Assembly (NCBI GenBank): GCA_015061815.1 | Contig: SUVW01000012.1 | Span: 1-64,000 of the forward strand | Length of the DNA: 64,000 bases | Source: Lentisphaerota bacterium | GTDB taxonomy: Bacteria; Verrucomicrobiota; Lentisphaeria; Victivallales; Victivallaceae | Direction: 5' to 3' | Shown: positions 6,368 through 54,935 of the stretch, piece after piece | Numbering within the stretch: the first letter of the stretch is position 1 | Layout of the letters: each line of letters opens with the position of its first letter | Made by a program: the position numbers and the translations under genes | Notes under the pieces: generated by a model | Databases searched by the model: none | The model's input: the letters and a program-made list of their open reading frames with translations, nothing else | What the model was told of the DNA's origin: nothing

Positions 6368-7387
6368 ATGTATAAAGCTTTTTTGATTCATTTAGCCACT
6401 AATATGTGGACGGATCGTCCGGAAAACCAGCTGCCGCATGTGGATATCAATTCGTGGCGGGAAGGATTGCCCTATACCTGGGAGAAACTTTATCAGCTTC
6501 TCGGGTATCATAATCAGGCAGGTTTTCACGATGACCTTTTCTGCGATGACGGGGTGTGGGAAAGAATTACCCGCAGTTTTGCGGAAAAAGGCGGTAATAT
6601 GCTGGTCATTGATGTCGGCGATGCCGTGAAATTCAAAAGCCATCCGGAAATTTCCCTGCCTCATGCCTGGAGTGTGGAAAAGTTGAAAAAAGAGTTGGCC
6701 CGCTGCCGTGAACTCGGTTTGCAGGTCGTGCCGAAATTGAATTTTTCCACCTGTCACGATGCCTGGCTGAAAGATTATCACCGGCAGGTGTCAACTCCGG
6801 TTTATTACCGTGTTTGTGCCGATCTGATCGCTGAAACAGCTGAAATTTTTGATTCTCCGGCGATTTTTCACATCGGCATGGATGAAGAAGCTGCGCATAT
6901 GCAGGCAACTCATTCCATAAGTATCGTCCGGCAGGGCGATCTCTGGTGGCACGATCTCAACTTCTTCTGTGATGAGGTCCGTAAAGCCGGGGCCCGCCCC
7001 TGTATGTGGTCGGATAAGCTGTGGGATATGGATGATCCGGCTGAATTCAGCCGCAATGTACCTAAAGATGTTATTCAGAACAACTGGTATTACCGCTGGG
7101 TGGAGGAACCAATGGCGCAGAAAGGGGATTCGGAAACTCTCGCTTTTTTCCGCAGAGGTATCAAGGCATTTTGCCAGTTGGATGAAATGGGGTACGATCA
7201 GTTGCCTTGCGGAAGCAACTGGGCATACGACGGCAATATCCGGCTGATCGTGGATTTCTGTAAAAAGAATTTGAAACGTAAACCGCTGGGATATATGACC
7301 GCCCCCTGGCTTTTTACCATGCCGGAGGCTGAATGTGTACTGCAGGATGCAGTAGAACAATTCTGCCGGGAAATACCTGAAATGTAA
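6368..7387 (+). CDS. GH20-like (beta-hexosaminidase-type) protein
   Basis: A 339-aa protein without a signal peptide. The barrel contains HIGMDEE with Asp172-Glu173, matching the catalytic Asp-Glu pair of GH20 hexosaminidases in the H-x-G-x-D-E context. It lacks the usual N-terminal GH20 alpha/beta domain and is shorter than typical enzymes, so the activity (possibly exo-N-acetylhexosaminidase or a relative) is inferred. I chose ATG 6368 rather than the upstream GTG-type start because it lies after agagataggg-like purine-rich sequence and begins the conserved region; it follows the previous stop by 19 bases. Probably cytoplasmic, acting on imported sugars. Confidence 0.72.
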   Translation: MYKAFLIHLATNMWTDRPENQLPHVDINSWREGLPYTWEKLYQLLGYHNQAGFHDDLFCDDGVWERITRSFAEKGGNMLVIDVGDAVKFKSHPEISLPHAWSVEKLKKELARCRELGLQVVPKLNFSTCHDAWLKDYHRQVSTPVYYRVCADLIAETAEIFDSPAIFHIGMDEEAAHMQATHSISIVRQGDLWWHDLNFFCDEVRKAGARPCMWSDKLWDMDDPAEFSRNVPKDVIQNNWYYRWVEEPMAQKGDSETLAFFRRGIKAFCQLDEMGYDQLPCGSNWAYDGNIRLIVDFCKKNLKRKPLGYMTAPWLFTMPEAECVLQDAVEQFCREIPEM

Positions 7388-49414: not shown

Positions 49415-49522
49415 TGCCGTGAGACGGACCTCGTGTGTTGTCTGAAACGCCAACCGGGTCAGGTGGGGAACCAAGCAGCCCTACGCGATTTCTGACAGGC
49501 CATGAGTCATCTGTTTCACGGT
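49415..49522 (+). ncRNA. ffs: signal recognition particle RNA, small bacterial (4.5S) type
   Basis: The conserved domain IV is clear: gggtcaggtggggaac (from about 49456) followed by caagcagccc, matching the GUCAGG / GGAA-type loop / AGCAGCC pattern that binds Ffh. The ends gccgtgagac (49415-49424) and gtttcacggt (49512-49521) pair to close a rod of about 108 nt. A T-rich attttctttt run follows. It lies between accD and rph. Confidence 0.9.
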
Positions 49523-49635: not shown

Positions 49636-50367
49636 ATGAGCGCAGTGCGTATTGACGGGCGAGCCTTTGATCAGTTGCGTCCATTGACTTTTGAAATAGA
49701 TTATCTCTCCCATCCCTTGTCTTCGGTATTTATTTCCTGCGGCCAGACCAGGGTGCTTACCGCAGTTTCCTGCGAAGACAAAGTTCCCTCGTGGATGAAA
49801 GCGCAGAAAGTTGCCGGCGGTTGGGTCACCTGTGAATACGGAATGCTGCCGTCAGCGACAACTGAACGGTGCCGCCGGGAGGCTTCGGCAGGCAGGCAGG
49901 GCGGCAGAACGGTGGAGATCCAGCGTTTGATCGGGCGTTCTTTGCGTATGGCGGTTGATTTGGAAAATCTCGGAGAAAGAACCATTTATCTGGATTGCGA
50001 TGTCATTGATGCCGATGGCGGCACGCGGTGTGCGAGCATATCCGGAGCATCTCTGGCTTTGGCGATTGGCTGCAATCGGCTGTTTGTAACGGCGGACAAT
50101 CCGTACCGTGAATTGGTGGCGGCAGTCAGTGTCGGTATAATCGATGGTGAACCGATGCTGGATCTCTGTTACGAGGAAGATTCCCGGGCAGAGGTGGATA
50201 TGAATGTTGTTATGACGGAATCCGGTAAACTGGTGGAAGTGCAGGGAACTGCAGAAGGTGCGCCGTTTTCCCGGAACAAACTTAATGAATTGCTGGATTT
50301 GGCAGAAAGCGGTTTGCGGCAGATATTTGCCCGTCAGCGGGCGATTTTGGAGAGAATTTCACAATGA
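49636..50367 (+). CDS. rph: ribonuclease PH
   Basis: A 243-aa phosphorolytic 3'-5' exoribonuclease of normal length. LRPLTFEIDYLSHPLSSVFI, GWVTCEYGMLPSATTER, GRSLRMAVDLENLGERTIYL and CDVIDADGGTRCASISGASLA are RNase PH signatures. It trims the 3' ends of tRNA and other RNAs. aaaggat precedes ATG. It overlaps dnaX by 4 bases. Confidence 0.96.
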   Translation: MSAVRIDGRAFDQLRPLTFEIDYLSHPLSSVFISCGQTRVLTAVSCEDKVPSWMKAQKVAGGWVTCEYGMLPSATTERCRREASAGRQGGRTVEIQRLIGRSLRMAVDLENLGERTIYLDCDVIDADGGTRCASISGASLALAIGCNRLFVTADNPYRELVAAVSVGIIDGEPMLDLCYEEDSRAEVDMNVVMTESGKLVEVQGTAEGAPFSRNKLNELLDLAESGLRQIFARQRAILERISQ

Positions 50368-52043
50368 GTGAATATCAGGTCATAGCCCGCAAGTGGCGGC
50401 CGCAGAGTTTTGCGGATGTAGTCGGTCAGGAGCATGTTGTGCGGACATTGCGCAATGCGATCGCCGGCGGCAGGATCGCTCATGCCTATTTATTTGTTGG
50501 TCCGCGCGGTATCGGTAAGACCACTTTGGCCAGAATTTTTGCCAAAGCGTTGAATTGTGAACAGCCGGTAAACGGTGAACCATGCTGCAAGTGCGCCAGC
50601 TGTTTGGATTTGGCCGCAGAAAAAAGTCTGGATGTAATGGAAATCGACGCCGCCAGCCGCAATTCAACGACGGATATGCGGGAGTTGGCGGAAAATGCGC
50701 TCACCCGTCCGGTCGGCGGAAAATATAAAATATATATTATCGACGAAGTTCACATGTTGAGCAAGGCGGCGTGGAATGTTTTGTTGAAAACTGTGGAAGA
50801 ACCGCCGGCACATGTTAAATTTATCTTTGCCACGACTGAAGTCCATCAGGTTTTGCCGACGATCATATCGCGGTGTCAGCGTTTTGATTTGATGCCGATA
50901 CCGACCCGGCTGATTGCTTCCAGATTGCAGTTGATCGCGGATACCGAAAAGGTGAGTATCGATCCATCGGCAATAAATGCCATTGCCCGGGCTGCGGAAG
51001 GCGGTATGCGCGATGCCCAGTCGCTGTTGGATCAGATGATCGCTTTTTTTGCCGGGGGAGATGGTTCGCAGATAACCGGAGAACAGGTGTTGTCGCTTTT
51101 CGGCTTGACCGATAAAGGAGAGCTGGATAGTATATTGCGGGCGATCCTGTTGAATAATCCGGGAGAAGTTGTTACCCGGATAGCCGGAGTGGCCCGGCGC
51201 GGGAAAAATCTTGAAACGCTTTTTGATGACCTGCTTTATGCTCTGCGGGCAGTGCAGTTGAGTACGATATTATCAGATCCTTCGGAGTTGCTGGATGAAT
51301 CTCCGGAAACGCTGGCCGGATACAGGAGTTTGGCACAGCTGGCCCCGGCGGATACGATCCAGATATTGCTGGAAAACGTCGCTCCGGTAGGGCGGATGCT
51401 CCATGATGCTTTGAATAAGCAGGTTTGCCTGGAAACGGTACTGCTCAAAGCCATGCGTGAGGCGCATGCGGTGCGCATCGGAGATATTCTGGCGCGCTTG
51501 AATCAGTTGCGGACAGCCGGAGAGTTGAAGTTTTTGGATCAATTGCCGCCGGTTGAAAAAAATATTGCCGCTCCGCTGCCTGCCAATATGGCCGTTAACG
51601 TTACCGGGGGGGCGGTGTTGAAAGAACCTGAAACTGTTTCTCCGGAAGAGGTCCCGGAAACTGCCCAAACGGAACCGTCTTCGCCGGAAGAACCGGCAGT
51701 CGTTTCTCCGGCTGTTGAAGCGGAAATCGAAATAAAAGAGCCGGAAATTGTTCAGCAGAATATCGAAACGATTCCGGAAGAATGTGCAGCAGAACCGCCG
51801 GTTGAAAACGAAGTTGTTTCTGAAGCCGATGATATTGTGTCTGATGCGGAAGCTGTTCCGGCGGCAGAGGTGAAGCTGCCCCGGGGGAATAAAGATAGAG
51901 AAACGGCCTATACGCCGGATAAACTGCAAAAAAGCATTGCCAATACCGAACCGCAGGAATTGGTAAAAATACTTGAAAGTGATCCGGTGGTAAAAGAAGC
52001 GGTCGATCTTTTCAGCGGGATGGTGATCGATATCCACCGGTAA
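50364..52043 (+). CDS. dnaX: DNA polymerase III subunit gamma/tau
   Basis: A 559-aa clamp-loader ATPase. VIARKWRPQSFADVVGQEHV starts the protein; GPRGIGKTTLARIFAKALNC is Walker A; the zinc Cys lie in CEQPVNGEPCCKCASC; IIDEVHMLSKAAWNVLLKT holds Walker B and the sensor region. Residues about 415-520 are a Pro/Glu-rich linker of low complexity, and a short C-terminal domain follows. The start overlaps the rph stop (ATGA). The usual neighbours ybaB and recR are not found downstream. Confidence 0.95.
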   Translation: MSEYQVIARKWRPQSFADVVGQEHVVRTLRNAIAGGRIAHAYLFVGPRGIGKTTLARIFAKALNCEQPVNGEPCCKCASCLDLAAEKSLDVMEIDAASRNSTTDMRELAENALTRPVGGKYKIYIIDEVHMLSKAAWNVLLKTVEEPPAHVKFIFATTEVHQVLPTIISRCQRFDLMPIPTRLIASRLQLIADTEKVSIDPSAINAIARAAEGGMRDAQSLLDQMIAFFAGGDGSQITGEQVLSLFGLTDKGELDSILRAILLNNPGEVVTRIAGVARRGKNLETLFDDLLYALRAVQLSTILSDPSELLDESPETLAGYRSLAQLAPADTIQILLENVAPVGRMLHDALNKQVCLETVLLKAMREAHAVRIGDILARLNQLRTAGELKFLDQLPPVEKNIAAPLPANMAVNVTGGAVLKEPETVSPEEVPETAQTEPSSPEEPAVVSPAVEAEIEIKEPEIVQQNIETIPEECAAEPPVENEVVSEADDIVSDAEAVPAAEVKLPRGNKDRETAYTPDKLQKSIANTEPQELVKILESDPVVKEAVDLFSGMVIDIHR

Positions 52044-53243: not shown

Positions 53244-53338
53244 AAAACAGTTTTCTCCATTTTTGAAAATCCAATCTGTTGCCGGGAAATCCGGGAAATC
53301 CGGTGATCCCGCTGCCGGTTGTTGCACCGGTAAAACGG

Positions 53339-53776
53339 TCAGGGACAGAGATTTTCAGGGCCGGCGCGGGGCGGCAATGAGTGGTGAAGAAAACGTTGAA
53401 AGATAAAACAGTTGAATTTACGGTGTTTTTCCAGATAGGAAAATGGAACCGGAAGTAACACCGTCTTGCCAATTATTGTTGCGGTATTACCGGTACGGAA
53501 AAATCGCAGGCCGGAGGATTGACTGTTTCGGCGGATGATTATTGCGGCCGGGGATGCGGCTGGAATTTCGCTTTGCAAACGTTCGGATTTTTTATCGGAT
53601 TTTTCCGGAGAAGAAAGCGGCAGGGATTCCGTAACGGCTGTTCGCTCCCACGTGCCGGATGAATGGTGATCATCCGGAAAAACGCCGGAAATGAACCACG
53701 CTGTCACTATTGCCGCAAATAACGGTATCTGCCGTCGCAGGAAATCAATTGTCCGGTAAAACATCATAGTTTTCAA
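53339..53776 (-). CDS. small hypothetical membrane-anchored protein, TTG start
   Basis: A 145-aa protein with one N-terminal helix (IPLFAAIVTAWFISGVF) after a basic MKTMMFYRTIDFLRRQ head, then a Ser/Pro-rich polar region and a basic C-terminal part. TTG 53776 is chosen: ggaggg sits 7 bases upstream, directly after a TTGACA-17-TATATT promoter whose start would be only about 15 bases away. ATG 53767 and 53764 are further in and badly spaced. No family is recognised; the C-terminal third is compositionally odd. Confidence 0.5.
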   Translation of the reverse strand: MKTMMFYRTIDFLRRQIPLFAAIVTAWFISGVFPDDHHSSGTWERTAVTESLPLSSPEKSDKKSERLQSEIPAASPAAIIIRRNSQSSGLRFFRTGNTATIIGKTVLLPVPFSYLEKHRKFNCFIFQRFLHHSLPPRAGPENLCP

Positions 53777-53795
53777 TTACGAACCCTCCAGAATT

Positions 53796-53824
53796 AATAT
53801 AATACAGTAAATATGATTTGTCAA
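53796..53824 (-). promoter_or_regulatory. consensus promoter of the 145-residue protein
   Basis: Minus strand: TTGACA (53824-53819), 17 bases, TATATT (53801-53796), followed by aattctggaggg. Confidence 0.85.
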
Positions 53825-53857
53825 ATTTTTTTTGAATTACTTTTGCTGTTGCCGGCA

Positions 53858-53886
53858 TTGACAAATTTATATGTGTATGGTATATT
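53858..53886 (+). promoter_or_regulatory. consensus promoter of the candidate structured RNA
   Basis: TTGACA (53858-53863), 17 bases, TATATT (53881-53886). It faces away from the promoter at 53796-53824, with 33 bases between the two -35 boxes. No protein gene starts within 340 bases downstream. Confidence 0.82.
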
Positions 53887-53892
53887 AACACA

Positions 53893-54167
53893 GGATATCA
53901 TGGGAAATTGATAAAGAGATGAAAATAACAGCTCCAACCCGGAAAGGAATTCGCCTGAAGATTAAAATAAAGCTGTTTTACTGATTTTTTTTGACAAACT
54001 GATTGTAAACGTCCATTCCTGAATTACGACCTCAAAAATAGACGATTGCAAAAAACTTTACCATCGGTATGTGCGTGTATTGATAAAATACTGCACATTT
54101 CGATATGTGTTTTTTGCAGCGTCGTCGTAAACGCAGGAATGGGCACTTCTTCGGGATGTGCTTTTTT
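53893..54167 (+). ncRNA. candidate structured noncoding RNA with a 128-nt rod
   Basis: From the promoter at 53858 the transcript would run about 275 nt to a terminator. Bases 54014-54141 fold as one rod: 54014-54021/54134-54141 (8 pairs), 54024-54030/54124-54130 (7), 54041-54044/54120-54123 (4), tgcaaaaaac 54047-54056/54109-54118 (10), 54063-54066/54101-54104 (4), 54069-54074/54093-54098 (6), 54077-54081/54087-54091 (5), apical loop gataa. That is 44 pairs with one 10-base bulge (54031-54040). The 5' part also holds aacagct/agctgtt and T8 near 53985-53992. It is not recognised as 6S RNA, tmRNA or RNase P. It could be two transcripts. Confidence 0.6.
54143..54167 (+). terminator. terminator closing the RNA candidate
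   Basis: gcac (54143-54146) pairs with gtgc (54158-54161); after one mismatch tc pairs with ga around a ttcgg-type loop; six T's follow at 54162-54167. It immediately follows the 128-nt rod. Confidence 0.6.
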
Positions 54168-54233
54168 ATTTCCCCGGAAAGTATGCAGTCATTATCGCAT
54201 TGAAAGCTACCGGTTGTATTATGTGGGGGGAAT

Positions 54234-54935
54234 ATGTATAAACGCGCCGGCAATTCATGGAATTGGTATATTAACGATGAAAGATTGATATCTCTTATCG
54301 CTGAAAATCCGCAACAGTTGATGAAAAATTCAACATTGGTAAAGCAGGATGAGGGGCAGACCACCGTTTTTTGCCGGGACGGATTTTTTTTCAAATGGTA
54401 TAACTATCCGTATAAGAATCTGCTCCGGAAAATCAGATACGTCTGCTGTTCCCGGGCTGAACGTGAATATCGGGCAGTGTGCCTGTGTCAAGAGTATGGT
54501 TTTCCGGTCTCACCGCCGGCCGGATATGGCGTATGCGGAACTCAAAGTATTCTGGTTACCGGTGAACTTGCCGGGTATGTTACTGTCGGTGAATTATTCC
54601 GGAAAAATGCGGGAAATCTGGATGAGCAATTTCTGCTTAAATACAGTGATTTTGGCAGTCGTTGTATTGATTCCGGTCTTTTTTTTCCGGATTTTCACTG
54701 TGATAACATCATGTATTCCGGTGAGAAAAAGGCATTCGCATTGATCGACATGTACGGTGTACGGCGGATGCGCGGCAAAAACCGGCGCAAGCAATTCCGT
54801 ATGCTGATGGCTCAAATTTCCGGGATCGGAAAATTTCTTCCGGCAGATAAATTTTTTTACATGTTGCGTGAATCAGGGATTTGCCGGAAGTCCAACTGTT
54901 TTTTTCAGCATGTAAATTTATATTGTCCAAGATAA
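54234..54935 (+). CDS. WaaP/Kdo-kinase-like lipopolysaccharide kinase
   Basis: A 233-aa protein kinase-like fold. FFFKWYNYP gives the ATP-binding Lys region, and FFPDFHCDNIMY together with FALIDMYGVRRMR match the catalytic DxHxxN and the DFG-like D of WaaP/InaA/Kdo kinases. Its job is probably phosphorylation of lipopolysaccharide core sugars at the cytoplasmic face, fitting a Gram-negative envelope. A strong gggggg lies before ATG. It is preceded by the structured RNA and its terminator. Confidence 0.8.
   Translation: MYKRAGNSWNWYINDERLISLIAENPQQLMKNSTLVKQDEGQTTVFCRDGFFFKWYNYPYKNLLRKIRYVCCSRAEREYRAVCLCQEYGFPVSPPAGYGVCGTQSILVTGELAGYVTVGELFRKNAGNLDEQFLLKYSDFGSRCIDSGLFFPDFHCDNIMYSGEKKAFALIDMYGVRRMRGKNRRKQFRMLMAQISGIGKFLPADKFFYMLRESGICRKSNCFFQHVNLYCPR

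Follow-up and report, generated by a model that had tools for sequence, protein, structure and literature searches.

A structured RNA family ahead of unrelated genes in gut Lentisphaerota, with rival helices predicted at its terminator

Transcription-attenuating leaders and riboswitch expression platforms, such as those of the ZTP or fluoride type, act by strand exchange, and in the leaders of processive antitermination systems (LoaP, RfaH, UpxY) an RNA hairpin and terminators stand before genes. Here we compare with these systems an element at positions 53,893 to 54,167 of a 64,000-nt stretch of Lentisphaerota bacterium DNA (contig SUVW01000012.1; the whole stretch is called the window), which a preliminary description had presented as a rod-shaped RNA with its own promoter and terminator. 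The element is one member of a family of structured RNAs, apparently not described before, that lie ahead of many unrelated genes in gut Lentisphaerota. Its terminator 3′ strand can pair with rival upstream strands, and on this sequence evidence the RNA may be a two-state transcription attenuator, a reading whose chances we judge to be evenly balanced. The parts of the RNA that the argument uses are as follows.

53989..54171, plus strand: conserved RNA core of 183 nt, model R1 (DNA homology borders and covariance model)
53993..54005, plus strand: segment V, conserved 5′ end of the core and possible third partner of Z (folds, duplex energy)
54013-54021 with 54134-54142, plus strand: helix P1 (fold and covariation)
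54024-54030 with 54124-54130, plus strand: helix P2 (fold and covariation)
54031..54040, plus strand: one-sided A-rich bulge between P2 and P3, a possible kink (sequence, fold)
54041-54044 with 54120-54123, and 54046-54056 with 54109-54119, plus strand: helix P3 (fold and covariation)
54063..54079, plus strand: segment W, 5′ strand of the apical hairpin (fold)
54092..54103, plus strand: segment X, 3′ strand of the apical hairpin, complementary to Z (pairing; 11 bp in the window copy)
54141..54148, plus strand: segment Y, 5′ strand of the terminator (Y:Z covariation)
54151..54162, plus strand: segment Z, 3′ strand of the terminator (X:Z and Y:Z pairing)
54162..54167, plus strand: terminator T-run of six T's (sequence)

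In an initial DNA search of 60 related genomes (E ≤0.001), the stretch 53989-54171 was matched at many places; 18 of the genomes were matched, some only via an AT-rich repeat at 53814-53846, and the homology between copies stops at or near the borders 53989 and 54171. The covariance model R1 gave 139 matches in 52 of the 137 genomes of the order, three of them in the window's own genome (G000) and up to 13 in a single genome (7 in G029, 10 in G111, 13 in G113 and 10 in G117). When 387 genomes of the phylum were searched with stricter filters, under which weak matches are lost, all 37 matching genomes fell in the same order (families f1 and f4). Among the best 80 of 98 genome stretches sharing a 16-mer, 17 are records of Lentisphaeria or Lentisphaerae, from bins labelled sheep, goat or yak gut or from SIG bins of unstated source; the remaining 63, from other taxa, gave short matches only (≤22.9 bits, best E 0.0054). 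Likewise, the best 80 of 87 viral stretches sharing a 15-mer gave matches of 33-97 nt (≤22.6 bits, best E 0.0084), hence no sign of phage carriage among them.

Covariation, which the preliminary description had proposed as a check, is abundant. Fetching 60 regions allowed 73 of the 139 matches to be aligned, the window included; in the 72 distinct rows 93.9% of the cells are paired, 46 of the 48 pairs have double changes, and there are 693 double-change cells versus 182.6 in shuffles. Sliding the partners along this alignment lowers the pairing to 28-46%. The alignment was fitted to the rod structure and so favours the rod, but a plain MAFFT alignment of 21 copies agrees with it (94.0% of cells paired, double changes at 24 of 49 pairs, 122 double-change cells versus 41.4 in shuffles). 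Helix P2 has 99.4% of its cells paired and double changes at all 7 pairs. In the window copy, 54014-54141 folds into a single rod at -51.7 kcal/mol (z -8.9), and none of 200 shuffles is as stable. Thus, the rod first described from the sequence stands, together with its tgcaaaaaac/gttttttgca helix and both outer helices; its pairs number 47, not 44, and its limits of 54014-54141 fall short of the conserved core, which starts near 53989-53992 and ends at 54171.

A second helix, in competition with the terminator, points away from a static rod. X (GGCACAUUUCGA in the main type) is, with G-U pairs, the reverse complement of Z (UCGGAAUGUGCC), giving a helix of about 12 bp, or 11 bp in the window copy. 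Two weak, truncated L071 matches were left out of the X:Z duplex counts, as of the open reading frame (ORF)-distance, Shine-Dalgarno (SD)-box and promoter counts below. With strand limits taken from one reference row, the X:Z duplex of the 71 copies has a mean energy of -18.4 kcal/mol, while partners swapped between copies average -14.9 +/- 0.33, and not one of 2000 permutations reaches so low a value; the corresponding means are -11.8 kcal/mol for the terminator (Y:Z) and -14.7 kcal/mol for the apical stem (W:X). L104 and L113 are without the X:Z helix. In the alignment, which was not fitted to X:Z, 93.8% of 822 X:Z cells are paired, with 53 double-change cells versus 18.8 shuffled, and 86.0% of 415 Y:Z cells are paired, with 16 versus 2.8. 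The X columns are out of register in L116, L117 and L079, which lowers the X:Z cell counts of those copies. The number of X:Z pairs with a double change, 8, is ordinary (7.0 in shuffles, 137 of 500 reaching 8), and we therefore place the weight on the cells and on the lineages: in a tree computed with W, X, Y and Z excluded, X and Z have changed jointly in at least four separate lineages (L104 was also omitted here).

Since W:X and Y:Z each exclude X:Z, these mutually exclusive helices at the terminator carry the signature of a two-state attenuator. In such a device, the built-in terminator would either halt transcription or let RNA polymerase run on into the gene; were X:Z to form, both the apical stem and the terminator would be lost. 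A nested X:Z helix costs a median of 18.2 kcal/mol relative to the best fold (69 copies, L104 and L113 being left out of this count and of the V:Z energy count), and for X:Z to form, either the rod would have to be disrupted or a pseudoknot made. The one-sided A-rich bulge that separates P2 from P3 might permit the rod to bend back on itself. More tentatively still, the family may form a class of bistable leader RNAs, perhaps a riboswitch for a general signal (second messenger, stress), in which Z chooses among homologous upstream strands via a pseudoknot with the folded-back rod and which has spread, in one lineage of gut bacteria, before many accessory genes of mixed function.

The position of the copies points the same way, and the element is best read as a 5′ leader. 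By a rule of an SD-preceded ATG ORF of at least 45 codons beginning ≤60 nt past the 3′ end, in 43 of 71 copies the conserved structured RNA leads into an intrinsic terminator and then a same-strand gene; on the other side the rule holds for 0 of 69, and in shuffled sequence for 13 of 710. Any SD-preceded ORF start is found within 350 nt in 64 of the 71 copies, and 38 of these 64 starts lie ≤30 nt from the model end, too near for another promoter; hence, these genes must be read through the terminator. The T-run is kept, by eye, in all 71 full copies save L104. Homology between loci mostly stops at the T-run, and on the 5′ side it often extends 30-50 nt or more beyond the core; cores up to 93.6% identical stand at loci with different genes.

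The downstream genes are varied. Of the 64 ORFs, 52 were scanned with Pfam and 49 clustered, the latter into 20 families, among them a linked group of 15 ORFs for zinc-ribbon and repeat proteins (an N-terminal double CxxC is present in 13 ORFs); a group of 7 has no Pfam match in the single member tested (L071). Four ankyrin proteins occur among the clustered ORFs, and the Pfam scan found 2 EcoRI-type methylases, 2 sulfatases and 2 UDP-sugar dehydrogenases. In a subfamily made up of L062 (element at 6465-6646), L115 and L119, the next ORF is 250-330 nt away, so these copies may act differently; that of L062 encodes a TOD1/MUCI70 glycosyltransferase-like protein. In L104 (5184-5367) the terminator strands are lost and no SD-preceded ORF start lies within 350 nt; this copy is apparently decaying.

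Several other explanations were weighed against the two-state attenuator. Z has a possible third partner in V, and the V:Z helix wins in about half of plain folds. The terminator-like hairpin and six T's of the preliminary description are in the sequence, but a simple terminator scan does not list the hairpin at the window copy, and in the minimum-energy fold of 53893-54167 its 3′ strand pairs with the 5′ end of the core and not with the terminator 5′ strand. The V:Z folds speak against an exchange between X and Y alone, and for them we lowered our confidence in the attenuator from slightly better than even to even. An explanation resting on V:Z itself gains a little from the duplex energy, which is nevertheless weak next to that of X:Z, and in fixed columns only 67.0% of 564 V:Z cells are paired, with 7 double-change cells versus 5.5 shuffled (155 of 500 shuffles reach 7); we consider it improbable. 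A function other than that of a leader or attenuator would suit the strong promoter and terminator, the 7 of 71 copies without an SD-preceded ORF start within 350 nt, and the alike cores before differing genes; since the closest ORF starts require read-through and the ORF bias is one-sided (43/71 versus 0/69), its chances are also slim, if by a hair the better of the two.

Less likely than either is a mobile DNA element or recombination site, similar to attC or to miniature inverted-repeat transposable elements, whose hairpin would be recognised as DNA and whose ORFs would be cassettes. The scattered positions, the tandem units 400-1400 bp apart and the near-identical cores with different ORFs behind them would fit, but the promoter and T-run are one-sided, the conserved loops are asymmetric, homology between most loci stops at the T-run, and no integrase was seen by eye among the ORF starts of 12 loci, no search having been aimed at integrases. 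As for a type III toxin-antitoxin system, inspection by eye, made without a repeat tool, showed no tandem repeats, and there was no toxin among the 25 commonest of 85 downstream Pfam families (ToxN was not searched by name). The two-state attenuator remains the reading to which we give most weight.

Upstream of the core and beyond it, the window copy has the following further features.

53858..53886, plus strand: promoter TTGACA-17-TATATT (promoter scan and comparison with other copies)
53942..53949, plus strand: SD-like purine box (GAAAGGAA) without a start codon (sequence)
54234..54935, plus strand: downstream ORF of 233 aa, SD GGGGGG, no Pfam match (inferred target of the window leader)

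The promoter is where it was first placed, with 11 of 12 consensus matches and a TG before the -10 box, and would start transcription near 53893. The promoter scan taken alone is at chance (3 sites versus 2.9 expected in shuffles); as scans for promoters or terminators alone are not above chance, we relied on comparison between copies. Promoter-like pairs with at least 8 of 12 matches, 40-150 nt upstream, occur in 52 of 69 copies versus 30.5 expected from shuffles, and with at least 9 of 12 in 30 copies versus 11.3, which supports the promoter. The SD-like box is present in 64 of 69 leaders (raw count). A leader peptide, and with it a ribosome-mediated attenuator, was rejected, since a start codon (ATG, GTG or TTG) follows 4-13 nt after the box in only 6 of the 64 boxed leaders and no shared frame was seen by eye; pairing of the box with the P2/P3 bulge found no support (859 of 2000 permutations as low). 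From the T-run to the ATG of the 233-aa ORF is 66 nt. Homologues of this ORF occur in 106 of 137 genomes, and comparing two tables by eye gave no R1 match at the listed homologues besides the window itself; blastp gave it no match to any of the other 48 downstream ORFs, yet the window leader shares 88-91% identity with the leaders at L081, L082, L083 and L087. The AT-rich 33-nt block at 53814-53846 holds part of a minus-strand promoter-like pair (TTGACA-17-TATATT) and recurs with 88-94% identity at eleven further places in the same genome, on two occasions as a pair spaced by 169 nt.

A search of the whole window with Rfam 15 at gathering score returned one RNA, a bacterial small signal recognition particle RNA at 49422-49519 (RF00169, 57.2 bits), shortly after which lies an ORF (50364-52043) that we take to be dnaX-like. 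On 53300-54700, at E ≤10, only a chance-level glmS match was obtained (11.6 bits, gathering 37), and 10 further element loci, of the 60 fetched, gave no match at gathering score; the preliminary description named no RNA family with this layout, and in these searches no Rfam family matches the RNA. The 6S comparison that had been suggested was likewise negative: RF00013 matches neither the window nor G000, while the same search matches 5 of 14 control genomes, including E. coli and B. subtilis. Like the present element, 6S RNA is a long rod of similar length; unlike it, the element is multi-copy, stands before genes and has rival helices at its terminator. The claim of a structured RNA that has a promoter and a terminator of its own is thus upheld, but the RNA is probably not a stand-alone one of the 6S kind, given the ORFs ≤60 nt behind 43 of 71 copies, and X:Z, as a second helix competing with the terminator, argues for a switch rather than a static rod. 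Acido-Lenti-1 (RF01687), an Rfam motif reported from Lentisphaerae, is also a multi-copy structured element in the same order, but its model has 46 positions, and it has no match in G000 at E ≤0.1 and, at gathering score, none in either the window or the 10 loci. Table 1 of PMC2864571 marks it n for cis-reg. In G067, G065, G056 and others it is highly multi-copy, with as many as 39 matches in one genome at E ≤0.1, and several matches are arranged as inverted pairs separated by 80-300 nt, a pattern suggestive of a mobile element.

Among the papers shown by a literature search, which did not take in the supplements of PMC8040213, none dealt with a similar Lentisphaerota leader RNA. The family has very strong covariation and no Rfam match, and in the searches made it was found in only one Lentisphaerota order; its regulon would comprise accessory genes, namely zinc-ribbon, ankyrin and Sel1 proteins, EcoRI-type methylases and envelope genes. 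Strands X, Y and Z (and V) amount to an exact, testable prediction, that of a switch with rival partners contesting a single terminator strand.

Processive antitermination leaders resemble the element in having an RNA hairpin and terminators before genes. A need for a NusG paralogue of the LoaP/RfaH type was rejected, as the carriers G000, G029, G111, G113 and G117 have a single NusG-family match each; other carriers, such as G010, have 2-3 (the genomes are incomplete). From attenuator and riboswitch leaders the element differs in that Z can pair with either of two upstream strands homologous to each other (X and Y), perhaps also with V, and in its 47-pair rod, without a known ligand or common gene function. 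What it shares with those leaders is a promoter of its own, a structured domain, an intrinsic terminator directly ahead of the gene, and competition by one of the terminator strands for a strand of the domain upstream. The mechanism belongs with the transcription attenuators, and the RNA family appears to be undescribed.
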